In this document: piece after piece, positions 862-30,646 of the stretch
How positions within the stretch are numbered: position 1 is the first letter of the stretch
How the letters are laid out: each line of letters begins with the position of its first letter
Source of the DNA: a virus
Length of the DNA: 36,208 bases
IMG/VR virus record: IMGVR_UViG_3300046168_000002
Location: 1-36,208 of that record
Strand: one strand, 5' to 3'
Program-made: the position numbers and the translations under genes
The notes under the pieces: generated by a model
Told to the model about the DNA's origin: nothing
The model's database searches: none
The model's input: only the letters and a program-made list of their open reading frames with translations

Positions 862-2133
862 ATGTCAGACCTGAAGATTAGTTTACTTCCCTGGCAACAG
901 GAGGTCTGGACTGATTCAGCTAGATTTAAGGTCATAGCTGCTGGTCGTAGGACAGGTAAGAGTAGAATGGCTGCGTGGAGACTGATAGTGTCTGCGTTAG
1001 AGGCTGATAAGGGTCATGTTTGGTATGTAGCCCCTACTCAGCAACAGGCTAGGGACATTATGTGGCAACAGCTACTGGAGTTAGGTAATCCGGTCATAGC
1101 AAATAGCCATGTAAACAATATGCAGTTAACATTGATTAATGGTTCTATCATATCGTTAAAAGGAGCAGATAGACCAGAGACAATGCGAGGTGTAGCTTTA
1201 AAGTTTGTTGTACTCGATGAGTATGCAGATATTAAACCTACAGTGTTTGAACAGATTCTTAGACCAGCGTTAGCTGACTTGAAGGGTCACTGTATATTTA
1301 TAGGTACACCGAAGGGACGTAATCACTTCTACGACATCTATAAGATGGGACAGAGTGGTAAGCCAGAGACTAAAGACTGGAAGTCCTGGCACTTTACTAG
1401 CTTTGATAACCCACTGCTAGATAAAGAAGAGATTGAGATAGCAAAGAACACCATGTCTACGTTTGCATACAGGCAGGAGTTCATGGCTAGTTTTGAAGCA
1501 CCACAGTCAGAGATATTTAAAGAAGACTGGGTGGTTGTCAAAGATAAAGATGATGAGCCAGAGTATGGTACTTACTATATGGCTGTTGACTTGGCAGGTT
1601 TTGAGAATGTGTCAAAGCAAGCCAGCAACAAAAAGAAGTACCTAGACCAAACGTCTATAGCTATTGTCAAAGTAGGAGATGACAACAAGTGGTGGGTAGA
1701 TAAGGTTGATGCAGGAAGGTGGGATATAAAAGAGGTATGCGAGAGAATCCTAAGTCATGTCCAATTATACGGCATTCAAGTAATTGGAATAGAAAAAGGT
1801 TCTCTAATGAGAGCATTACTGCCTTACTTAACAGAGATGATGTTAAAGCAAAATGTGTATCCCAGAATAGAAGAGATAAAACTAGGCAATAAGAGTAAGA
1901 TAGACAGAGTTGTAGGCGCATTGCAAGGTAGATTTGAACACAGGCAAGTAGAACTCTGTGATGGTGACTGGGTAAGAGAGTTTAAAGATGAGTTACTTAA
2001 CTTTCCTACTACTGGTGTGCATGATGACATGGTTGATTCAGTGAGTCTAATAGCTCACATAGCTAATGCAGCAGTATACTTTGAAGATGATTTTGATGAT
2101 TACGAACCCTTAGACATTATATCAGGATATTAA
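862..2133 (+). CDS. terL: Terminase large subunit
   Basis: This is the ATPase-nuclease motor that drives DNA into the capsid and cuts concatemers. At 423 residues it is short to typical for the family. The Walker A region is GRRTGKS near residue 28, and Walker B with the catalytic acid is VVLDEYAD near 115-122. A coupling-type motif FIGTPKG follows near 145-151. The C-terminal RNase H-like nuclease begins with MAVDLAG near 242-248, and its late acidic motif is HDDMVDS near 397-403. It starts three bases after the small subunit stop, and the AAGG near the end of that gene can serve as its ribosome site. Confidence 0.95.
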   Translation: MSDLKISLLPWQQEVWTDSARFKVIAAGRRTGKSRMAAWRLIVSALEADKGHVWYVAPTQQQARDIMWQQLLELGNPVIANSHVNNMQLTLINGSIISLKGADRPETMRGVALKFVVLDEYADIKPTVFEQILRPALADLKGHCIFIGTPKGRNHFYDIYKMGQSGKPETKDWKSWHFTSFDNPLLDKEEIEIAKNTMSTFAYRQEFMASFEAPQSEIFKEDWVVVKDKDDEPEYGTYYMAVDLAGFENVSKQASNKKKYLDQTSIAIVKVGDDNKWWVDKVDAGRWDIKEVCERILSHVQLYGIQVIGIEKGSLMRALLPYLTEMMLKQNVYPRIEEIKLGNKSKIDRVVGALQGRFEHRQVELCDGDWVREFKDELLNFPTTGVHDDMVDSVSLIAHIANAAVYFEDDFDDYEPLDIISGY

Positions 2134-2135
2134 AT

Positions 2136-4164
2136 ATGGCTGAACAATACCGAGAAACAGAATTCACATCAGAGGAAGAAGAAGTAACTCAGAGTGATAA
2201 AGAGATAGTATCGTTTGTAGTTGAACACTGTGACAGGTGGAGAGACTGGAGGGATACTAATTATGAAACCAAGTGGGATGAATATGAAAGGATATACTAT
2301 GGAGTTTGGAGCGCGGAAGATCGTACAAGGGACAGTGAGCGTAGTAAAATCATTAGTCCTGCTACCCGTCAAGCTGTTGATAACAGGGTTGCGGAAACTA
2401 TGGAAGGCTTTGCTGGATCCGGGAAACTGTTTGAAATAACTGATGATGGTTTAGATGAAAATAGTGTTGACGTTGAGTTAATGCAATCTCTTCTGTTAGA
2501 AGATACACACAACAACGCATATATAAACAACGTCAGTTCTATTGTTAAACTAGCAGAAATCTACGGCACAGGTATTGGTGAAGTTTTAGTTAAGACTGAA
2601 ATGGAACGAGTACCTACTACACAGCCTATGCCTGATTCTCAAAACATGGCTGCTGTAGGTGTTACCGAGCAAGAAAAAACTGTCGTTAAAATTAAGCCTG
2701 TTAATCCAAGAAACTTACTGATTGATCCTAACGCTGACGCTATTGATGACTCGATGGGTGTTGCAGTAGAAGAGTACGTCAGTTTGTATCAGATTGTTAA
2801 AGGTATTGAGTCTGGTGTTTACCGTAAAGTAGATATACAGCCACACTACGAAGGTGACGATTTAGATCCTAGTCACTTGGAAGATACTACTTACCAAGAC
2901 GATAAAGTTAAGATTATTCGTTACTACGGTCTTATACCAAGAGAATACTTAGAAGACTTAGAAAACGGAGACGATGAAGTTGTTGAGTTGTTCCCTGAAA
3001 ACTCTGCTGCTGATACTGTTTCTGATCTGGTAGAAGCTATTGTTGTTATTGCTAATGACAACCAGTTATTAAAAGCAGAAGCTTCTCCGTATATGATGGA
3101 AGACAGACCGATTATTGCATATAGACCTGAGGTTCGTCCAGGACTCTTCTACGGCGTTGGAACAGTTGAGAAGGGGTACAACATGCAAAAAGCTATTGAT
3201 GCCCAGCTACGCTCTCATATGGACTCTCTGGCGTTAACTACTGCGCCTATGATGGGTATTGATGCGACAAGATTACCGAGAGGTATGAAGTTCGAAGTTA
3301 GACCTGGTAAAAACATCCTAACTAATGGAAACCCTGCAGAAATCTTACAACCGTTTAAGTTCGGGAGTACGGATGCTTCTAACTATGAAACAGCAAAAGG
3401 TTTTGAAGCAATGCTGCTGCAAGCAACAGGCACACTAGACTCGGCAGAGTTGGTCAAGAGTGCAGCAGGAGGAGGGGGACAAAACAACGGTATGGGTATG
3501 TCGTTAGCTATGTCTGCTATTGTCAAGAAGAATCGTGTGGCAATGGCATCGTTTCAGGATGACTTCATCATTCCAATGGTTAAGAAAGGTTGCGTATCGT
3601 TATATGCAGTTTGATCCTGATCGTTACCCAATGCAAGACTTTAAGTTTACTACGTTGTCTTCTATTGGTGCTATTACTAAGGAACACGAACAGCAACAGC
3701 TTATTGGTTTGATGCAGACGCTTGGACCTAACTCACCTATTGTTCCTATACTACTTAGAAGCATTATAGGTACATCAGGTCTGTTAAACAAAGAACAGTT
3801 AATGGTCCAGTTAGATCAAATGTCACAACCTGATCCACAAGCTCAAGAAATGCAGATGCAAGCGCAACAATTACAGATGGGTCTAGTAGAAGCTCAAGCT
3901 AATGAGTTAAATGCTAGAGCGCAAGAGTCTGCTGCTGACGCACAGGAAGCACAAGCTAGAACACAAAAATTATTAGTAGAAGCATCGTTACTTGATGACA
4001 AAGTTAAAGCTGATTTAGTTAGAAGTTTGTCAGCTAATATTAACGCTAAAGATAAAAATGAATTTGATAAACGTGTTAAAGCTGCTGAAATGATTTTAAA
4101 AGAAAGAGAAATAGACTCTAACGAAAAAATAGTAGAACAACAAATGAGACAAAATAATGCTTGA
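2136..4164 (+). CDS. Portal protein, interrupted by a frameshift near 3588
   Basis: The portal forms the dodecameric ring through which DNA enters and leaves the head. The first frame runs 2136-3614 (492 codons). The family-like sequence then continues in the +1 frame from about 3589 to 4164. Reading AAG AAA G then GTT GCG TAT restores a continuous product of about 675 residues (FIIPMVKK joined to VAYRYMQFDPDRYP). The last 120 residues are a Gln/Ala-rich coiled coil, usual for podovirus portals. One extra base in the A/G run at 3582-3589 explains the break. A programmed +1 shift is possible but no known signal is obvious. The start ATG at 2136 follows AGGATATTAAAT. Confidence 0.88.
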
Positions 4165-5576: not shown

Positions 5577-6509
5577 ATGGCACTAGGTTCTAATCATGTC
5601 ACCAAGACCACTGCGGATAAGTTTATCCCAGAGATTTGGAGTGACGAAATTATCGCAGCATATAAGGCTAATCTTGTTGCTGCAAACATGTTCAGCAAGA
5701 TGTCTTTCAAAGGTAAGAAGGGCGATACGCTTCACATTCCGAAGCCTACTCGTGGTTCTGCTTCTGTTAAAGCAGCTTCAACTCAGGTTACACTGATTGC
5801 AGCAACTGAGACAGAACAGCAAGTTCTTATCGACAAGCACTACGAGTACTCACGTTTGATTGAGGACATCGTAGAGACACAGGCACTTGCTTCTTTGCGT
5901 AAGTTCTACACTGATGACGCTGGTTACGCTCTAGCTAAACAAGTTGATACTGACTTGATTCAGCTTGGTCGAACAGTTGGTTCAGGTACTGCTTACTCTA
6001 CAGCAGCTTCATCAACTAACGCTTTCATTGGTTCTAACGGTACAACTGTCTATAACAGTTCATCATCTAACGCTGCTGCGTTGACTGATGCTGCTATCAG
6101 ACGTTCTATCCAGCGACTCGATGATGCTGACGTACCAATGACAGATCGTTGTATGATTGTCCCACCATCAACAAGAAATACTCTTATGGGTATTGCTCGA
6201 TTTACTGAGCAAGCATTTGTTGGTGAGCAAGGTTCAGCAAACACAATCCGTAACGGTATGATTGGTGATATATATGGCGTTATGTCTTATGTATCAACTA
6301 ATGCTGATAGCGGTGCTGGAAGCTCTGGTGCTGACCGTATCTGCCTACTTGCACACAAGGACGCTTTTGTTCTTGCCGAGCAGATGGGTGTACGTTCTCA
6401 GACCCAGTACAAGCAAGAGTACCTCGGTACGCTGTTCACATCAGATATGCTTTACGGTGTAGCTGAGTTGCGTGACAGTTCTGCTGTTGCTCTAGCTGTT
6501 CCTGCTTAA
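5577..6509 (+). CDS. Major capsid protein
   Basis: This 310-residue protein is the head shell subunit by position (after the scaffold) and by its similarity in character to T7/N4-type coat proteins of marine podoviruses. The N-terminus has TADKFIPEIWSDEIIAAYKANLVAANMF, and further on lie KGDTLHIPKP and a YSRLIEDI helix. GAAAGGAAATAAAAA before the ATG is a strong ribosome site. The gene is followed after 12 bases by an intrinsic terminator, so it ends a high-level transcript. Confidence 0.9.
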   Translation: MALGSNHVTKTTADKFIPEIWSDEIIAAYKANLVAANMFSKMSFKGKKGDTLHIPKPTRGSASVKAASTQVTLIAATETEQQVLIDKHYEYSRLIEDIVETQALASLRKFYTDDAGYALAKQVDTDLIQLGRTVGSGTAYSTAASSTNAFIGSNGTTVYNSSSSNAAALTDAAIRRSIQRLDDADVPMTDRCMIVPPSTRNTLMGIARFTEQAFVGEQGSANTIRNGMIGDIYGVMSYVSTNADSGAGSSGADRICLLAHKDAFVLAEQMGVRSQTQYKQEYLGTLFTSDMLYGVAELRDSSAVALAVPA

Positions 6510-6521
6510 TTAAGTAGGTAT

Positions 6522-6555
6522 CTCCCCAGGCTCATAAGGTCTGGGGAGTTTTATT
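6522..6555 (+). terminator. Rho-independent terminator after the capsid gene
   Basis: Perfect 8-base stem CTCCCCAG (6522-6529) and CTGGGGAG (6541-6548), with an 11-base loop, followed by TTTTATTATT. It sits 12 bases after the capsid stop codon. It probably reduces read-through into the fibre genes, as the terminator after the T7 capsid gene does. Confidence 0.92.
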
Positions 6556-6560
6556 ATTGT

Positions 6561-6625: not shown

Positions 6626-6721
6626 ATGACTTGGCAAGACTTCTGCCGTAAGCGTGAATTAAATAACCACAAAAAACAACAACTACTTAAACTACGACAA
6701 AGGAAACACTATGTGGACTAA
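6626..6721 (+). CDS. 31-residue basic micro-protein
   Basis: A short gene with a near-perfect ribosome site (AGGAGG at 6616-6621, five bases before ATG). The product starts [12 protein letters not shown] and is rich in Lys, Arg, Gln and His, with no membrane segment. It overlaps the start of the PqqA-like gene by 11 bases, so the two are likely translated together. I do not recognise a family. A nucleic-acid-binding or leader role is conceivable. Confidence 0.6.
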
Positions 6722-6782
6722 ACCTGAATACACTGAGATGAGATTTGGTTTTGAAGTCACGATGTACATTGCAACTAAGTAA
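6711..6782 (+). CDS. pqqA: PqqA-like peptide (PQQ cofactor precursor)
   Basis: A 23-residue peptide starting [13 protein letters not shown] and ending [10 protein letters not shown]. PqqA is the ribosomal precursor of pyrroloquinoline quinone; the cofactor is built from a crosslinked Glu and Tyr of an E-x-x-x-Y motif. Here Glu15 and Tyr19 fall at the same positions as in the 23-residue Klebsiella peptide, and the Trp2, Lys4, Pro5, Arg11, Gly13, Val16 and Thr17 pattern is also kept. AAAGGAAA lies just before the ATG. No pqqB, C, D, E or F gene is in the window, so host enzymes would have to process it. The assignment is from memory of the family, without a database search. Confidence 0.85.
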
Positions 6783-6791
6783 GGACGTATA

Positions 6792-8081
6792 ATGGCTATA
6801 TTTAGAGGAGCAGGAGGACCAGGAGATGCCACAACAGATGCTGCTAATCAAGCTAGTGTAGCGTCTACAAAGGCTGCTGAAGCTGCTGCATCTGCTACTG
6901 CTGCTGCGTCCTCTGCCACTTCTGCATCAACGTCTGCTACAGCTTCTGCATCTTCAGCAACAGCATCTGCTAGTTCTGCTACAAGTGCTGCTAGTTCAGC
7001 CACATCTGCTGCTAGTTCTGCTACTGCTGCTGCAGCTTCTTATGATGACTTTGATGACAGGTACTTAGGTGCTAAGTCATCTGACCCGTCTACTGATAAT
7101 GACGGTGACGCACTTTTAGCTGGTGCGTTATATTTTAATACGACAACTAATATTATGCAGACCTACACAGGGTCTGCGTGGCAGTCTATTGCTACAGGCG
7201 GTACTGGTTTACTAGCGTCTAATAACTTATCTGACGTAGCTAGTGCAAGCACATCAAGAACTAATCTTGGTGTTGCTATTGGCTCTGACGTACAAGCATT
7301 CTCATCTGTTCTTGCAGGTACTACTGCATCTTATACTACTGCTGAAGAAACTAAACTAGCTGGTATAGAAGCCAGTGCTACAGCAGATCAAACTGCTGCT
7401 GAGATAAAGACTGCATACGAAAGTAACTCAGACACTAACGCATTCACTGATGCTGACCATACTAAGTTAGACGGTATTGAAGCATCTGCTACTGCAGACC
7501 AAAGTGCTGCAGAGATTAAAACAGCATACGAAAGTAACGCAGACACTAATGCATTTACAGACGCAGATCACACTAAGTTAGATGGTATTGAAGCCAGTGC
7601 TGATGTAACAGATACAGCTAATGTTACTGCTGCTGGTGCATTAATGGACAGCGAGGTTACTAACCTAGCACAAGTCAAAGCATTTGATTCAGCAGACTAC
7701 GCTACTGCTGCACAAGGAGCATTAGCAGACAGTGCTTCTCAACCTGCTACAACAGTATCTAAGACATCTGCTACAGGCTCTGCTGTTATGCCATCAGGTA
7801 CTACAGCACAGAGAAACGGATCACCCAGCGCAGGTAACTTACGATTTAACACAACTGATACTTCCTTTGAGGGCTACGATGGTTCTGCATGGGGTGCTAT
7901 TGGTGGAGGTGGTGGAGCTACAGGTGGAGGTTCTGACCAAGTATTCTATGAGAACGGACAAACAGTCACTACTAACTACACACTAACTTCAAACACTAAC
8001 GCAATGAGTACAGGTCCAATTACAATTAATTCTGGTGTGGCGGTTACTGTACCCACTGGAGGAAGGTTGGTGATTATTTAA
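6792..8081 (+). CDS. Tail fibre protein with Ala/Ser stalk and tandem repeats
   Basis: A 429-residue fibre. The start MAIFRGAGGPGD is typical of marine podovirus fibre N-termini that dock on the tail. Residues about 20-90 are an almost pure Ser/Ala/Thr heptad-like stalk. A domain with YFNTTTNIMQTYTGSAWQ follows. Around residues 175-285 there are three repeats built on TKLxGIEASATADQ and AAEIKTAYESN. A second SAWG-type module and a Gly-rich segment follow, and the C-terminus (TSNTNAMSTGPITINSGVAVTVPTGGRLVII) is beta-rich. The next gene starts directly after its stop. Confidence 0.85.
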   Translation: MAIFRGAGGPGDATTDAANQASVASTKAAEAAASATAAASSATSASTSATASASSATASASSATSAASSATSAASSATAAAASYDDFDDRYLGAKSSDPSTDNDGDALLAGALYFNTTTNIMQTYTGSAWQSIATGGTGLLASNNLSDVASASTSRTNLGVAIGSDVQAFSSVLAGTTASYTTAEETKLAGIEASATADQTAAEIKTAYESNSDTNAFTDADHTKLDGIEASATADQSAAEIKTAYESNADTNAFTDADHTKLDGIEASADVTDTANVTAAGALMDSEVTNLAQVKAFDSADYATAAQGALADSASQPATTVSKTSATGSAVMPSGTTAQRNGSPSAGNLRFNTTDTSFEGYDGSAWGAIGGGGGATGGGSDQVFYENGQTVTTNYTLTSNTNAMSTGPITINSGVAVTVPTGGRLVII

Positions 8082-17026: not shown

Positions 17027-18532
17027 ATGGCAACGGTCGCATCGTTATTTGGTCCTTCAGCAGAAGAAATTGTTTTTGCTAGAAAGAAAGAAGAAGAGGA
17101 CGCAGCAAGACAAAAATACTTAGCTAGAATGCAAGGCGCTGGTCAAGGTCTTGGTCCTTTTGCTTGGGCAGCTAGGGCTGGAGTGGACGTAGGAGAAACT
17201 TTAAGAACTGCTGGTGGTATGTTCGGAGAGCAGATAGAAGATCCTCTTATTAAAAAGTACAACCGTATCAATCAGATTCTTGTCGAAGAAGGCGGTGATT
17301 TAAATGACCCTGTAGCACTTAAAAGGGTAGCTGATAAGTTACAAGCTGAAGGTTACACTAACGAAGCTGTTCGTCTCTATGATCGTTCAAGTGTATTAAG
17401 CACACAAGCTCGTGAACTTGCTTTACAAGAAAGTCAGTATGGTCCTGCAACTTCAAATAATTATGTTGATATTGAAGGTAACTTTGTTAAAGAGGATAAA
17501 GCAGGTAACTTCTACGATATGCAAGGTAACCCGCTTAATCCAGTAGAAGTAATAGGCAGGGACGTATTTTTTGATACAGATTTAGCTTTTAACCCACAAA
17601 GGAAAACTGCTATACAAAGAGGACGAGACTACCGAGCAGGTTTAGATGTATCGCCTAGAGATAACTATGTTGAAACAGATATTAGTCGAGGAGATAGTTC
17701 AGAAACTTCTCAAGTTAGTATAGACACTGATGCTGCGAAAGCAGAAACTGATAGGAAAATAGCAAAAGCCGAAGCAGAAAGAGAAGAAAGGTTACGGGAA
17801 GGAGAAACTGATCTTATTAAAGATCCTCAAACTGTGGGTGCGGTTATCTCACAATCAGGAGCAGATCAAGGTCCAGGAGCTTTGTTTACTATACAACCAA
17901 GAGATAATTTAGTCGAGTTATCTCCTGATTCTGAATCTGCTAGAGAAGAGTTTGTTACTAGGGATGATAGCGATTTTAATTATATTGATCCTAATAAATT
18001 TGAGTTTAGACCAGGAGCAAAAGATTTAGATCCTTCTTTTACCCGTAGAAATCAACAGCAAGGTACTTTTGAATTTAGACCAGACTTAGCTGATACTGGT
18101 GGTTTGTTTAAAGACGATATGAGAAACATAGCAAACTTAGATCAGTCTTTTGTTCCTTCAGTTATACCGTCAACAGAAAGAGACTACAGAACTCTCACAC
18201 CTTCTGGTGGACCGGAATATAGTCCTGAGCTAATGGATGCAGTAAGGTTGCCAGGTACTTCGGAATTTGGTCCGAACCCAGAAAATTTAGCGTTTGGTCA
18301 GAAAAGCACTAGGTCTGGTAATCGTGATCCTATGTTAATAGATATCTTTAGAGGTGATTCTGAACCTACTGAAGAAGATTACATTGATTATTTAGAGGCT
18401 TTAGCAAAACTGGACCCTGAAGCCTATGGTTCTCTTTACAACGATGTTAAAAGAGGAGTTGTAAAAATGACTAAAGAATTAGGAAAATCTATTAGAAGAT
18501 TACTTCCTAATAGTCCAACGGAGTTTTATTAA
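17027..18532 (+). CDS. Internal virion protein (putative)
   Basis: A 501-residue hydrophilic protein in the ejection-protein region between the glycine-zipper protein and a 608-residue protein. The N-terminal 110 residues are helical (SAEEIVFARKKEEEDAARQK), with a Gly/Ala-rich membrane-like stretch (GLGPFAWAARAGVDVGETL). The rest is acidic and low in predicted order (many Asp, Ser, Pro), with a Glu/Arg coil around 230-250. AAGGAATAGAT precedes the ATG, and its stop overlaps the next start as TAATG. No named family is recognised. Confidence 0.65.
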   Translation: MATVASLFGPSAEEIVFARKKEEEDAARQKYLARMQGAGQGLGPFAWAARAGVDVGETLRTAGGMFGEQIEDPLIKKYNRINQILVEEGGDLNDPVALKRVADKLQAEGYTNEAVRLYDRSSVLSTQARELALQESQYGPATSNNYVDIEGNFVKEDKAGNFYDMQGNPLNPVEVIGRDVFFDTDLAFNPQRKTAIQRGRDYRAGLDVSPRDNYVETDISRGDSSETSQVSIDTDAAKAETDRKIAKAEAEREERLREGETDLIKDPQTVGAVISQSGADQGPGALFTIQPRDNLVELSPDSESAREEFVTRDDSDFNYIDPNKFEFRPGAKDLDPSFTRRNQQQGTFEFRPDLADTGGLFKDDMRNIANLDQSFVPSVIPSTERDYRTLTPSGGPEYSPELMDAVRLPGTSEFGPNPENLAFGQKSTRSGNRDPMLIDIFRGDSEPTEEDYIDYLEALAKLDPEAYGSLYNDVKRGVVKMTKELGKSIRRLLPNSPTEFY

Positions 18533-20358
18533 TGGCAGTCGTAGATATATCAAACCTATCTAAAAGCGATCAAGAAGCTGTTAGAGAAGCGTCTAGAACT
18601 GGTGATTATTCAAAAGTTTCTGAAGAAGGTTTAAGAATTATTACTGACACAGCTTACGATACAAGTGATGTTGTGTTTAGACAGGCAGAAAGAGGATTAA
18701 GTTCTAGTATTAGGGGTGTGGCTAGAATGTTTGGTTTAGATCCTCAATCAGATCAAGATGCTGAAAGACAATCAAGAGCAATGTTTGAAACTAATCCAGG
18801 AGCTTCTTGGGCATCTTATATTGGTGGTAGTATTTTAGATCCTATTAACGCTATAGGTGTAGGTAAAGTTAAAACAGCTTTAAGCGCAGGTGCTAGATAC
18901 AGTGCGCTAGGAGGTGCGTTAGGTTTTATTGAGCCTACCTACGATGAGTATGAAGATAGCCGATTACGAAATGCTGCTGTAGGCGCAGGTACTTTAGGTT
19001 TATTTGGCGCAGGTGTTACAGGTTTAGTCAATAAAATTGCAGGTAAATCTTCTCAAGAAGTAGAAAAAACTCTTACAGACGAAGCTCAAAAAAGTTTAAC
19101 TGCTGCTGCAACTACTCCTAGTGCAGTTGGACCTCCTAAACCTTTAGTTGGACCTATGAGTCCTTCAGGTGTTGGCGTAACTCCAGAAGCTACTTTTGGT
19201 CAAGAAACGTCTTCTCTTCTTTCTATAGACGTAACAGCATATAAACCACAAGAAAGAATAAATCTTATTTTACCTGATGGTACGCAAGCTAGGTTAACTC
19301 AAGAACAGGCTTTTAAAGAAGGTTATATAACATTAAAAGGACTAGACGGAGAAGCTCCTTTTATTCCTCCAACTCTTCCAAGTTATTTAAAAAACGCAAA
19401 ACCAAGATACAAAAATTTAGTCCCTACGTTCGAGTCTGATTTAGATAAAGCTCTTTATATTATTGGAAAAGAAACAGGTAACCGATCTAAAGCTGATGAC
19501 AAGTATTTAGAGTTTGTCATGCAGAATACAGGGTTAAATGAAGCAGGGGCAAGAGCAGAAGGTAGACGAATAATTAAAGAAGTAGGTGAGAAATTAAAAA
19601 CAGCAGACGTAGACTCTGATTCTGTTTTTACAATACCTACTACTTGGAAACCTAATGCAACTAGACTTCCTAGACCTACTGTATCGTCAGTAGAACAAGT
19701 AACTATAAACGCCAAAAACATAGACGAATCTCCAAAATTATCATCTAAGTTATTTGATGAACCTGTTGTTCATAATGGTTCAAAATTAATATTTGGTTCT
19801 GATATTGATAAAGCTGCTGTTGCAGTTAAAAAGAACAGTGTAAATAAACAAGAGTATTTAGATTATGTTAAGAATACGTTTGGCATTAACGAACAGCAAG
19901 CTGAAAAAATTATTGACGAAATATCTTTTGAGGTTTTAAGTAAAATAAATAAAAGCGCAGTAACAGAAGGAAAATTAGCACCTGAAACGTCAGTACCTAT
20001 GTCTGCAACTTTAGACAACATTGTTAACCCAGTGTTTAAACACATGGACGATGAGTCAAGGTACGTTTATAATTATAGTAAGTCTTTAGGTGAATTAGAT
20101 GGTAAACCTAAAGTACGAATTGATGAAGGGTTTAAACAGTTTGTTGCTAAGATGAGTCAGATATTTCCAGGAATAAAAGAAGTAGACGCTATATCTACTG
20201 CTCAAGGTTATCAAAGATTGATGGATAATTTAAAACTAGAAAAAGGTACTAAGTTTACGTCAACTAATATTAGAGATTTTGCTGCCAATAGGAACGGTAA
20301 TTTAGATGCTTTCATTGCGTCAGCTAAACGAGGTGATATGGATGGGTGTTGGTCATGA
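18532..20358 (+). CDS. Large internal virion protein, first of three coupled genes
   Basis: A 608-residue protein. Residues about 80-160 include SWASYIGGSILDPINAIGVGKVKTALSAG and a Gly/Ala-rich segment (LRNAAVGAGTLGLFGAGVTGL) that could insert in a membrane. Later parts are helical and repeat LDKALYIIGKETGN-like and DKAAVAVKKNSVNKQEYLDYV units around an FGINEQQA helix. It overlaps the next gene as ATGA. It probably forms, with its two downstream neighbours, the large ejection machinery comparable to T7 gp15/gp16. No peptidase or transglycosylase motif is clear. Confidence 0.65.
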   Translation: MAVVDISNLSKSDQEAVREASRTGDYSKVSEEGLRIITDTAYDTSDVVFRQAERGLSSSIRGVARMFGLDPQSDQDAERQSRAMFETNPGASWASYIGGSILDPINAIGVGKVKTALSAGARYSALGGALGFIEPTYDEYEDSRLRNAAVGAGTLGLFGAGVTGLVNKIAGKSSQEVEKTLTDEAQKSLTAAATTPSAVGPPKPLVGPMSPSGVGVTPEATFGQETSSLLSIDVTAYKPQERINLILPDGTQARLTQEQAFKEGYITLKGLDGEAPFIPPTLPSYLKNAKPRYKNLVPTFESDLDKALYIIGKETGNRSKADDKYLEFVMQNTGLNEAGARAEGRRIIKEVGEKLKTADVDSDSVFTIPTTWKPNATRLPRPTVSSVEQVTINAKNIDESPKLSSKLFDEPVVHNGSKLIFGSDIDKAAVAVKKNSVNKQEYLDYVKNTFGINEQQAEKIIDEISFEVLSKINKSAVTEGKLAPETSVPMSATLDNIVNPVFKHMDDESRYVYNYSKSLGELDGKPKVRIDEGFKQFVAKMSQIFPGIKEVDAISTAQGYQRLMDNLKLEKGTKFTSTNIRDFAANRNGNLDAFIASAKRGDMDGCWS

Positions 20359-20987
20359 GTAAGCGTTGTTATCTTGATAAATTTTCTAGGTTTCTTCCAG
20401 AAGACATTAGTCCTAATTTAACAGCGGATCAAATTAAAGCGTTGTCTGCTTTAGATTCAAAAGACGCTGCTAAATTATTAGGTCGTATGTCAGAAATACC
20501 TGATAAACGTGTAGCTGATCTTATGTCCAAGATGCTTAGTCCAGAGCAAGTAGGTAAAGTTTCTAGAATAGGTCAACCTATAACAGAAAACGAAAAAGCT
20601 GCACAAGCAGAAGCTAAAAGAATAGCAGAAGAGTTATCTCCAGATCAATTAGAAAACGGACGGAGAGCAGCACAGATTATAGCTGCTAAATATTCTAAAG
20701 GAGATTTGTTATCTGAAGGGCAGAGAGAACTTGTTGCTACACACTTTGCAGGACGGATGGACGAAACCATAGGTATTATTGACCAGTTAGATAACGCTTT
20801 AGATAACGGTAATGATGCAACTGTAGCTTATCTTTGGAATAAACTTACACCTACGATAACTTTAGGAAGTGCTTTGATGGGAGACAAAAATGCTTTGTCT
20901 AGGGCATTACGAGATCAAAAAAGAATTAATAAAATTATCGCAGAAGGCGGAGATATTATGCGTCTGTTTGAAAATGGAGCTTGTTAA
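20355..20987 (+). CDS. Internal virion protein, second of three coupled genes
   Basis: A 210-residue helical protein starting at ATG 20355, which overlaps the previous stop by ATGA. It opens MSKRCYLDKFSRFLPEDISP and contains regular amphipathic helices (LDSKDAAKLLGRMSEIPDKR, AQAEAKRIAEELSPDQ). A GTG nine bases earlier is an alternative start, and the ribosome site is weak for both. Because it lies in the -1 frame relative to the previous gene, a frameshift joining the two cannot be excluded. It ends in TAATG with GGAG before the next start. Confidence 0.6.
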   Translation: MSKRCYLDKFSRFLPEDISPNLTADQIKALSALDSKDAAKLLGRMSEIPDKRVADLMSKMLSPEQVGKVSRIGQPITENEKAAQAEAKRIAEELSPDQLENGRRAAQIIAAKYSKGDLLSEGQRELVATHFAGRMDETIGIIDQLDNALDNGNDATVAYLWNKLTPTITLGSALMGDKNALSRALRDQKRINKIIAEGGDIMRLFENGAC

Positions 20988-23101
20988 TGAAAGTAAACCC
21001 TAGATGTAGAATGTTACTAAAAGAAGTAGCTGACGGGCTTCGCGGTACTTTTGGTAATCCTGACGTAGACAAAGCTCAAGTCGTAGCTGACATGACTAAA
21101 TCTTTAGTAGACCTAGCTGACAGACCTGATTTAAGACAGAGTGCTGCTACATTAGTTAGAAATAACTTTTTGTCTGCTCCGTCTACTACCTTTAAAAACT
21201 TTATGGGTAACTTAGCTAGAGTTATCGAAGCACCTATTACTCGTTTTGCTTCTGGTCTTGCAACACTTGATGCTAAACGAATGAAAGAAGCTGGGGATAT
21301 TCTTGTTGGTTATACCAAAGCATTTGCTGAAGTATTTCCTAGATTTATTGGTGGATATCAAAATAGAACTATTGTCTTTGACGGTAGGACTTCTAAGGAA
21401 GTAGATTTTTATTTAAGATTTCCAGGGCAAGACCCATCGAAAGAGTTGTCTACTTTTGATAAAGGTTTAAACACTGTCGTTACGTTTCCTCAAAGTTTAC
21501 AGAGAGGGATTGACGAAGGGTTTGCTACGTTCTTTGAAAGAGCGCAGTATCAGGTTATGATGAACAGGTTAAAGAACGCTCCTGATGAAGAAGTATTAAC
21601 ACGTTTAGGAATGACTAGAGACGAGCTAGTGGATACTTTAGAAACTGCTGTAACTAGTAAGGCACGGGGTGGTAAAAGAGATCTACAAGAAGAACGATTG
21701 TTTGATGCTGTAGCAAAGATTGACCCAGAGGCTGCAAAGTTAATCGAGGAGTTTTCTCTTTACGGTACGTTCAGAAGTAAACTAGGAGACAGTTTAATTG
21801 ATAAAGCTGCTTCTAATTACTTTAAATTTTCTTCGGAGAAACTGCCTGAATTAGCTTTTATTACTCCGTTCATTATTACACCTTTAAACGTAGCTAAGTT
21901 TGGTGCTGGTTTTGTTCCAGGTTTAGGTGTTCTTAGGATGAGACAAGCTGCTAAAGACATTAAAAGATTAGTTGTTAAAAAGCAATCGCTAATATCTAAA
22001 CTAAACACAGCTAAAAATGATATCACCATAGCTAGATTAGAAAAACAAATAGCTGAAACAACTGGAGAGATTAAATCAAAACAGCAATTAAAAAATGATT
22101 TCATGGGTCAACAGTTGTTAGGTTTAGGTTTTACTGGCTGGACATATTCAATGATACAAGACGGTCAACTAACAGGTGACTACCCTGCTAACCCAGCACT
22201 AAGAGCTAGGATGCAAGAGCAAGGAATACCTCCTAACTCTGTAAAGATCGGAGATCGTTGGGTAAGCTACTCAGGTATAGAACCGTTACATACTGTGTTT
22301 GCTATATTTGCTAACGGAAAAGAAAAAGCAGAACAGCAAAGATTAGAAGGTAATGAAGCAGCAAGCATGCAGACTATAGCGTCTGTTGCCGAAGTAGTTA
22401 AAAGTTCGTTCTTAGATAAAACTTTTACTGTTCAACTAGGTGAGTTTATGAACGCAGTTACTTCAGAAGAAGGTTTAAATAAATTAAATGGTATGGTTAT
22501 AGGTGCGTCTAATGGTTTAACGCCTAACTTATTTAACATGATTGCAAGACTTGAGGACCCTGTTCGTAAACAAACTAAAGACGAGTATTTACCTACTTGG
22601 ATTTTAAACAACATGAAAGCTAGACTACCAGGTTTGCGTAGCGATCTTCCTGATAGAGTCAGTCCGATTACAGGTGAGCCTGTATCGTTAGGAAGTTCAG
22701 CAGAAATTACTTCCGGTTTTAAGTTTGAAGAAGTAAATAGAACTAAATTACAGAAACTATTTGACAATCCAGAATTAAAGATAGCACCACCCTCTAGTAA
22801 CTTGTTTGGTATCACATTAAACAACGAGCAATACTCTAGAATGTCCCAGTTAATGGGTGAATATACTAATCAGGCTCTAAACTATATGGCTTCTTCAGAA
22901 GGTTTTATGTTGTTACCTGATAGTCTACAAGCTAAAGCAATTAAAGACGCAGTAAGTTCAATACGCAGTGATATTAGAAAAATGGTTCTTGGTGAATTGA
23001 TTCAAGATAAAAGCAGTAAAGAATATACTGACTTCATAAATAATGAGTATAAGAAAAAAGGTATTAATCCTTACACTAACCCTGACTATATTGTGGACTA
23101 A
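20987..23101 (+). CDS. Large internal virion protein, third of three coupled genes
   Basis: A 704-residue protein with ATG 20987 in a TAATG overlap and GGAG eight bases upstream, so it is a genuine start. It is largely helical, with a possible membrane segment at about 290-320 (PELAFITPFIITPLNVAKFGAGFVPGLGVL) and another near 370 (FMGQQLLGLGFTGWTYSMI), separated by a coiled coil (KQSLISKLNTAKNDITIARL). Its size and place just before the lysozyme gene fit the largest ejection protein of a podovirus. No enzymatic motif is seen. Confidence 0.65.
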   Translation: MKVNPRCRMLLKEVADGLRGTFGNPDVDKAQVVADMTKSLVDLADRPDLRQSAATLVRNNFLSAPSTTFKNFMGNLARVIEAPITRFASGLATLDAKRMKEAGDILVGYTKAFAEVFPRFIGGYQNRTIVFDGRTSKEVDFYLRFPGQDPSKELSTFDKGLNTVVTFPQSLQRGIDEGFATFFERAQYQVMMNRLKNAPDEEVLTRLGMTRDELVDTLETAVTSKARGGKRDLQEERLFDAVAKIDPEAAKLIEEFSLYGTFRSKLGDSLIDKAASNYFKFSSEKLPELAFITPFIITPLNVAKFGAGFVPGLGVLRMRQAAKDIKRLVVKKQSLISKLNTAKNDITIARLEKQIAETTGEIKSKQQLKNDFMGQQLLGLGFTGWTYSMIQDGQLTGDYPANPALRARMQEQGIPPNSVKIGDRWVSYSGIEPLHTVFAIFANGKEKAEQQRLEGNEAASMQTIASVAEVVKSSFLDKTFTVQLGEFMNAVTSEEGLNKLNGMVIGASNGLTPNLFNMIARLEDPVRKQTKDEYLPTWILNNMKARLPGLRSDLPDRVSPITGEPVSLGSSAEITSGFKFEEVNRTKLQKLFDNPELKIAPPSSNLFGITLNNEQYSRMSQLMGEYTNQALNYMASSEGFMLLPDSLQAKAIKDAVSSIRSDIRKMVLGELIQDKSSKEYTDFINNEYKKKGINPYTNPDYIVD

Positions 23102-29002: not shown

Positions 29003-30646
29003 TTAATGTGTCGCTGCCCAATTTAGTCCTACTTTGAATTCCCCGTCTAAAGGGCAACGTAAGTTTAGACGGATCCCTGCTTGACGGATGGATTGTACTG
29101 CAAAGTGTCCAACCGTGTCTGCATCTTGTTCGGTAGTTTCAATCTGCCATTCATCATGCACATTGGCAACAAACCGAGCATCCATATTACCATTAATTAA
29201 TTTTCTGTTCAAGATAATTAACGCTTGTTTCATAACTATTGCACCTGCACCCTGCAGTAATGTATTCAGAGCAGCGTGTTGTGACCGAACAATCAATCTA
29301 CGACCATCCAGTCCAGGCAACCATTCCTTCTCAGCTAACCGGCTAACCTTGTCCTTGAGTTTCTGCAAGGCTGGCGTGTTCTTTAAGAAGCTATCGATCA
29401 ATCGTCTGCCTTCTCGCTCACCACCACCTACAATCTGACCGATCTTAGCAGGACCTGCACCATACAGAAACGCATAGATAAATGTCTTGGCTTGATCTCT
29501 GTCAGTCAGTCCGGCAGCTTGCATGTTAGCTGTATGGATATCACCTTCGAGTATCTCTTTCGTGTAGTTCCTATCGTCCATATAGTGTGCAAGCATCCTG
29601 AGTTCTAGTCCACTAGCATCAGCACCGAGTAGTACATTACCGTCCTCTACTGTCCATACTGATCTACACTCCTCACCATACTCGCTACCGACACGCGGGA
29701 CTTGAGCTAGGTTAGGTTTACTGTGCGTCATTCTTCCCGTGATCGCTCCGTTGGTTCTGACCTTACAGTGTACCCGTCCCCTTTCAGATACATTTTCAAC
29801 CCACGACTTAACTTGAGCCACCCTTTTCTGAAGTAGTAGATATCGTAGAATAGGTTTAGCTTGAGGGATTTTAACAGTTTGTAATACTTTCTCATCGACA
29901 ATGACTGATCCTTTCTCTGTATGTTTTCTAGGTTTCCATCCCAGACTCATTAATCTTTCCGCTATTTGCTTGCGGGAACCTGGATTAAATACTTCTACTT
30001 TATCCTTCAATCGCTTACCTGTCTTGTCGCTGTATCGCTCAGTCGTAATCGGTTGAAAGACCTGCTGCAGTTCTTCTTCAATATCCATAAGGCTTTGCTG
30101 CCAGTTAGCAAGCATCAACATACACTTCGGTACATCTAGTTTGAATCCGTTTTCTTCCTGCTTTTTAACGACCATAGCGACCTCATGCTCAAGATCAACT
30201 GACTGACCCCAGTCCAGTAAACTAGAATCAAGATGCGTAAATAGTGCATGAGTAATCTCAACGTCTTGTATGCAGTAGTCAACCATGTCTTCAGACAATC
30301 CACCATCGAAGTCACTGAAGTCCCCTTTTTTTAGCCCTAGCCTCACGCCCCATGAATCGAGAGAGTGTCCTTTTTCTAGGACGGGGTTTAGTAACCTTGA
30401 CATTATCAACGTATCTTTTAACGGGTTCGAGTCCGTATTCAAATTCCATAGCTTCTTCAATACAGGTAAGTCGAAGCTGATTATGTTGTGACCAATCAAT
30501 AGGTCTTGCGAGTCGATGTACTGGCGTAAGCCGTTTGCTGCTTTCCATACCTTAACCTCCCCTGAGTCTATATCCTTAGTGACCGCGCACCATATCTCGG
30601 TGGCATCTAAACCGTCAGTCTCAATGTCAATCGCTAGTCTTTTCAT
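29003..30646 (-). CDS. Family A DNA polymerase with 3'-5' exonuclease domain
   Basis: A 547-residue replicative polymerase. The exonuclease motifs are DIETDGL near residue 7, GHNIISFDLPVL near 53 and YCIQDVEITH near 127. The polymerase motifs are LLGADASGLELRML (motif A), RDQAKTFIYAFLYGAG (motif B) and VANVHDEWQIE (motif C). The residue equivalent to E. coli Phe762 is Tyr (FIY), as in T7. The protein is shorter than T7 gp5, mostly between exonuclease and palm. It overlaps the primase-helicase gene by ATGA. Confidence 0.95.
   Translation of the reverse strand: MKRLAIDIETDGLDATEIWCAVTKDIDSGEVKVWKAANGLRQYIDSQDLLIGHNIISFDLPVLKKLWNLNTDSNPLKDTLIMSRLLNPVLEKGHSLDSWGVRLGLKKGDFSDFDGGLSEDMVDYCIQDVEITHALFTHLDSSLLDWGQSVDLEHEVAMVVKKQEENGFKLDVPKCMLMLANWQQSLMDIEEELQQVFQPITTERYSDKTGKRLKDKVEVFNPGSRKQIAERLMSLGWKPRKHTEKGSVIVDEKVLQTVKIPQAKPILRYLLLQKRVAQVKSWVENVSERGRVHCKVRTNGAITGRMTHSKPNLAQVPRVGSEYGEECRSVWTVEDGNVLLGADASGLELRMLAHYMDDRNYTKEILEGDIHTANMQAAGLTDRDQAKTFIYAFLYGAGPAKIGQIVGGGEREGRRLIDSFLKNTPALQKLKDKVSRLAEKEWLPGLDGRRLIVRSQHAALNTLLQGAGAIVMKQALIILNRKLINGNMDARFVANVHDEWQIETTEQDADTVGHFAVQSIRQAGIRLNLRCPLDGEFKVGLNWAATH

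Follow-up and report, generated by a model that had tools for sequence, protein, structure and literature searches.

The PQQ precursor peptide PqqA binds PqqD and PqqE in bacteria, and extra bacterial copies of pqqA are often unlinked from pqqB-E, linkage being usual and not required. Published Methylophilaceae genomes contain 3-12 pqqA genes and a single pqqBCDE set, with one exception (PMC4109929), and PqqA peptide added to cell extract is described, in the paper citing this work, as giving rise to PQQ (Wang et al., 2021, cited in PMC9851590). Viral copies have been encountered as well: in the Lake Baikal T4-like population VP_266, the PqqA of a methylotroph phage, situated beside methanol dehydrogenase on one contig, was read as an auxiliary metabolic gene (PMC7678222), and pqqA/D/E are listed among the viral genes of reservoir sediment (PMC13188868). 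Searchable papers on cultured OM43 phages report no phage pqq gene.

Here, we analyze the IMG/VR record IMGVR_UViG_3300046168_000002, from a marine virus of bacteria, over its full length of 36,208 bases, referred to as the window, for which an earlier note had claimed an orphan phage PqqA adjoining the capsid gene.

The pqqA locus of the window

By gene content, the window represents a bona fide podovirus. Its plus strand encodes the terminase large subunit, portal, scaffold, major head protein, tail and internal virion proteins, while a family A DNA polymerase, a primase-helicase, an exonuclease, a B12-type ribonucleotide reductase and a calcineurin-like phosphoesterase are found on the minus strand. 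The nearest isolates of the DNA polymerase are the pelagiphages HTVC104P and HTVC103P (51%), and the capsid is nearest to LPP-type cyanopodoviruses and distantly related to HTVC011P. The reductase gene (B12-dependent type; PF21995, PF02867; 24238-26127, minus strand) separates the structural module from the replication module and is oriented opposite to the structural genes. Overlapping ORFs in different frames were observed in the portal region (2136-4164; ORFs 2136-3614 and 3520-4164), and the region of the large internal virion protein (18532-23101) is likewise covered by overlapping, frame-split ORFs (18532-20358, 20346-20987 and 20981-23101). These split ORFs look like sequencing frameshifts or programmed slips.

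Table 1. Features of the pqqA locus and marker genes of the window.
Feature	Position	Strand	Evidence and remarks
Terminase large subunit gene	862..2133	+	phrog_2, E 3.3e-46; marks tailed phage
Major capsid protein gene, directly upstream of the pqqA locus	5577..6509	+	phrog_267 major head protein, E 4e-50
Intrinsic terminator after capsid gene, 11 pairs and T-rich tail	6522..6558	+	terminator scan; kept in relatives
31-aa basic ORF with strong AGGAGG site	6626..6721	+	overlaps pqqA start by 11 nt
pqqA ribosome-binding site AAGGA, 6 nt ahead of ATG	6700..6704	+	sequence
pqqA, 23-aa PQQ precursor peptide, stop included	6711..6782	+	PF08042 43.9 bits, TIGR02107 47.7 bits; kept in relatives
Glu15 codon, one of two residues becoming PQQ	6753..6755	+	profile alignment position; invariant in clade relatives
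Tyr19 codon, second residue becoming PQQ	6765..6767	+	profile alignment position; invariant in clade relatives
Tail fibre gene, start 9 nt past pqqA	6792..8081	+	phrog_24456 tail fiber, E 3.5e-47
Family A DNA polymerase gene	29003..30646	-	PF00476; nearest isolates HTVC104P/HTVC103P

The peptide encoded behind the capsid gene matches the Pfam profile PF08042 over its full length (1-19 of 19; E 2.1e-11, gathering cut-off 21.1 bits) and the NCBIfam equivalog model TIGR02107 over 21 of 21 positions (E 8.8e-13, cut-off 20 bits), both scores (Table 1) exceeding twice the cut-off. The PqqA residues W2, K4-P5, R11-x-G13 and E15-V16-T17-x-Y19 are all found, Glu15 and Tyr19 occupying the cross-link site with a spacing of four. 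The contig encodes no second PqqA, and tblastn searches of the window with PqqB, PqqC, PqqD and PqqE of Acinetobacter yielded zero matches. A search of the PDB with the peptide sequence gave no useful match. Judged by its sequence, the product of 6711-6782 is an orphan phage PqqA. The claim of the earlier note was thus upheld, including the profile matches that it had named as a check, the MW start and the KP, R-x-G and E-V-T-x-Y motifs, and the gene's own ribosome site and location between a terminator, recovered here at 6522-6548 by the terminator scan, and the fibre gene.

The ribosome site of the fibre gene overlaps the pqqA stop codon (TAAGGA), and a promoter scan detected none upstream of pqqA in the window. 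The 31-aa basic ORF that precedes pqqA (Table 1), which like the stop codon overlap is not mentioned in the earlier note, matches no PHROG and no other family. It was found in 57 of the 93 clade records tested, mostly at the same length, and is absent from others, in which pqqA follows directly after the terminator.

Conservation in the capsid clade

Degenerate DNA patterns condition on the conserved residues of the peptide, and conservation was therefore tested separately on loci gathered by their capsid and scaffold proteins, without conditioning on the peptide. At a capsid identity of at least 85%, the ORF is intact in 17 of 17 distinct records, with Glu15 and Tyr19 and right behind the capsid terminator; the same site in related phages, which the earlier note had pointed to as a possible source of refutation, hence retains both the frame and the cross-linked residues. 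The peptide ORF is present in one of six relatives at 80-85% and in none of the 87 relatives below 80%. Relatives devoid of pqqA show a clean empty site, consisting of capsid, terminator and fibre with the same fibre start. This boundary in capsid identity is not absolute, because carriers at 77-82% also turned up in a scan for the allele, although that scan depends on the peptide itself. Substitutions within the clade are mostly silent (pS 0.39, pN 0.055, pN/pS 0.14) and the variable residues are confined to positions 3, 6, 10, 22 and 23, Glu15 and Tyr19 never varying. As read from these substitutions, pqqA of this clade is under purifying selection on its amino-acid sequence.

The complete scan of IMG/VR for the window allele returned 94 contigs, and in 80 of the 89 records with enough upstream sequence, pqqA is preceded by the capsid gene of the window. 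Other PqqA types occur in two loci (L038 and L127) whose capsids are 52% and 64% related to that of the window, L038 carrying a gene between capsid and pqqA, and in a further locus (L026) pqqA is located behind a gene that clusters with capsids but has no direct match to that of the window. These three cases are possibly repeated gains of pqqA near the capsid gene.

Orphan pqqA genes in other phages and viral contigs

A tblastn search of 50,697 phage records identified PqqA in twelve. Nine of these are Methylophilales or Methylophilaceae phage records (MEP301, MEP401, MEP402, Venkman, four records of Melnitz, and P19250A). A further record is a metagenomic podovirus with a peptide identical to the Methylophilaceae PqqA from residue 2 on, and the other two are mislabelled “Acinetobacter phage MD-2021a” contigs. 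The MD-2021a record that was examined (CAKLQF020000010.1) was rejected as bacterial DNA on account of fur, ppk and pqqABCDE. Queries of the alphaproteobacterial PqqA type returned no further matches in the phage records. Every cultured methylophage checked carries PqqA (MEP431-434 and some other isolates lay outside this check). Because of its small size, phage pqqA escapes gene callers: it is annotated as pqqA in no phage record that was examined, several being without any annotation at this place and two showing an antisense ORF instead.

Searches of IMG/VR with three degenerate DNA patterns yielded at least ~260 contigs with PqqA, encoded by ORFs of 22-31 codons, nearly all with ATG and ribosome site. 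Single-linkage clustering by shared proteins over-merged the loci, and flanking genes were therefore used to define contexts, of which the sampled viral loci comprise ~57; this is a rough count, because fragments can split one context. Large neighbours of viral pqqA match portal, terminase, baseplate and DNA polymerase families, and outside the window clade the gene stands alone between unrelated genes, often on the opposite strand. Among 128 viral loci, 38 have an intrinsic terminator within 90 nt after pqqA, where mononucleotide shuffles predict 0.05; the gene with its own terminator resembles a cassette or moron-like build. The regions upstream of viral pqqA showed no enrichment of promoters over shuffles. 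A jumbo-sized viral contig of 356 kb (IMGVR_UViG_3300023174_000036) was also found to carry an orphan PqqA.

When 49 PqqA-bearing phage records were searched whole, none contained PqqE over the cut-off (positive control: Acinetobacter contig, 632 bits) and none contained a PQQ alcohol dehydrogenase or methanol dehydrogenase. Absence from a single record proves little, because many IMG/VR records are fragments; the cultured phages in this test are complete genomes. In addition, pqqB-E were not detected near any of the viral pqqA copies tested. As 66 of 115 sampled bacterial blocks are likewise without pqqB-E, the missing linkage is not decisive for membership in the PqqA family.

Hosts and host alleles

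Bacterial contigs sharing this PqqA core were sampled as well, and most of these 115 derive from methylotrophs. In Methylophilaceae, pqqA was present in 100 of 100 genomes with a mean of 4.37 copies (at least two in 97), and even OM43-like genomes of 1.2-1.3 Mb keep three pqqA. Among Methylophilales bacterium LSUCC0135, L318 and L321, up to 12 pqqA were counted in a single genome, and tandem pqqA triplets were seen in gammaproteobacterial (Methylophaga-type) genomes; these copy numbers represent a strong host-side amplification of the precursor gene.

The viral PqqA alleles parallel the types of host. Methylobacterium-like and further alphaproteobacterial alleles are among them, and we presume these to mark the corresponding hosts. 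The common Methylophilaceae peptide is encoded exactly by 25 viral loci, in 24 different DNA sequences. The bacterial peptide nearest to that of the window was found in the TMED22 group; the two differ at residues 22 and 23 alone, both of which lie outside the cross-linked core. The exact TMED22-group peptide occurs in 13 viral contigs, seven of which carry it behind the capsid gene of the window. This group comprises betaproteobacteria of 1.2-4.3 Mb, with 1-3 pqqA in 13 of 17 genomes; PQQ alcohol dehydrogenases were found in TMED22 itself and, over the cut-off, in the candidate host genome G043, which has two pqqA. Tetranucleotide composition also favours the TMED22 group, weakly, and counts little because one of four control phages with known host (Melnitz) was misassigned. 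Peptide identity and this weak compositional signal make a marine betaproteobacterium of the TMED22 type the most likely host.

Proposed function of phage pqqA

The viral gene is probably a phage copy of host pqqA and an auxiliary metabolic gene by which the phage supplies substrate to the PQQ synthesis of its host. In this model, the phage would make extra PqqA peptide during infection, and host PqqD, PqqE, protease, PqqB and PqqC would cross-link, trim and oxidise it to PQQ, at a stoichiometry of one peptide per cofactor. The new PQQ would keep the PQQ-dependent methanol and alcohol dehydrogenases of the host charged, whose activity would then feed energy and C1 carbon to phage replication. 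Each PQQ uses up one PqqA, whereas the enzymes are reused, and for this reason the peptide gene is all that the phage would need to carry. Methylotrophs meet this demand with many pqqA copies beside a single enzyme set, to which the phages would add further copies. We infer expression in infection, processing by host enzymes and an effect on PQQ and burst. Since PQQ bound to MDH may be stable over an infection, a need for new PQQ is an assumption of this model. As to what characterizes an auxiliary metabolic gene, pqqA of the window lies in a genuine phage genome with hallmark genes on both sides and is maintained by selection, and a host homologue and pathway exist in Methylophilaceae and in the candidate hosts, the host of the window itself being a predicted one.

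Of the three functions offered by the earlier note, increased PQQ output is the one favoured here, as viral peptides are often identical to host PqqA. A decoy that occupies PqqD/PqqE and so stops the host's PQQ synthesis or turns it aside, be it to shut down methanol oxidation or a competing phage, would draw on the binding of PqqA to both proteins and would suit a phage without an enzyme of its own. However, host-identical peptides fit extra substrate and should not act as inhibitors, and loss of Glu15 or Tyr19 would be anticipated in a decoy, whereas both are invariant even in relatives found without the peptide pattern, making this explanation very unlikely. The third function, some other use of the peptide, could take the shape of a RiPP-like or regulatory role in signalling, anti-defence or superinfection control, with the PqqA form kept by PqqD/PqqE processing. 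A PqqA-annotated peptide family is co-expressed with defence systems (PMC11118758), and a second conserved basic peptide, the 31-aa product, is coupled to pqqA in the window clade. Yet the residues that are kept are those becoming PQQ, and all hosts known so far are methylotrophs, which have PQQ enzymes and multiple pqqA copies; we regard such a role as unlikely.

It is also conceivable that translation of pqqA mainly sets that of the fibre gene, its sequence being a piece of host DNA that is carried along (a moron) and does little by itself. The overlap between pqqA stop codon and fibre ribosome site and the frequent terminators behind viral pqqA agree with such an arrangement. The leader function, however, fits the window clade only, given the solitary, often opposite-strand setting of pqqA elsewhere; the fibre start is unchanged in relatives that lack the gene, and purifying selection acts on the amino-acid sequence, which renders this explanation quite improbable. 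Host DNA erroneously called viral through contamination or misbinning does exist, as exemplified by the examined MD-2021a record with its full pqqABCDE. For the window it is excluded because of the hallmark genes on both sides, among them terminase, portal, capsid, tail and replication genes; furthermore, nine methylophage genome records carry pqqA and the viral copies tested have no pqqB-E nearby, so that the chance of such an artefact is negligible.

Returning to substrate supply, the presence of pqqA in every cultured methylophage checked and in hundreds of viral sequences suggests that viruses top up the methanol oxidation machinery of their hosts. On balance, we favour the notion that phages of PQQ-dependent methylotrophs carry orphan PqqA almost universally and by convergence, unrelated phages having repeatedly captured the host allele. 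If so, infection would in general be limited by PQQ supply, and a gene of 23 aa would mark the host range of methylotroph viruses. The peptide would also provide a cheap host marker for uncultivated viruses. If the substrate-supply model is true, the rates at which abundant methylotrophs of seas and lakes oxidise methanol would be set in part by viruses, in OM43, in LD28/Methylopumilus and possibly in TMED22-type cells. Cultured phage-host pairs, e.g., Venkman or Melnitz on H5P1, allow direct testing of this model.

Comparison with known systems

To our knowledge, auxiliary metabolic genes encode enzymes or protein subunits in nearly all cases; the viral contribution proposed here is a consumable substrate of a cofactor pathway. 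The earlier note had called a substrate peptide in this role unusual, which holds for the type of gene and fails for its rarity, since it is widespread. The peptide of the window shares with bacterial PqqA (PF08042/TIGR02107) the length, the WxKP start, the RxGxEVTxY core and the Glu/Tyr cross-link positions, and differs in being encoded by a phage without pqqBCDE. Extra pqqA copies alongside a single enzyme set are also the arrangement of Methylophilaceae (PMC4109929), where they are chromosomal and not viral. In contrast to the PqqA of VP_266, that of the window is an orphan, resides in a podovirus and is one of at least ~260 contigs, in addition to nine isolate records. MEP301, MEP401, MEP402, Venkman, Melnitz and P19250A likewise encode an orphan PqqA of 23-24 aa with a ribosome site, although at different genome positions and in different phage types.

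A further parallel may be drawn to psbA, the gene of a fast-turnover photosystem protein that is carried by cyanophages. In both cases, the phage would supply whichever host component is depleted fastest; psbA, however, encodes a protein subunit, whereas PqqA is a peptide that is spent as the substrate of cofactor synthesis. Set against these systems, the orphan, substrate-only strategy, its presence in all cultured methylophages checked, the variety of its gene contexts and its agreement with host alleles appear to be new.
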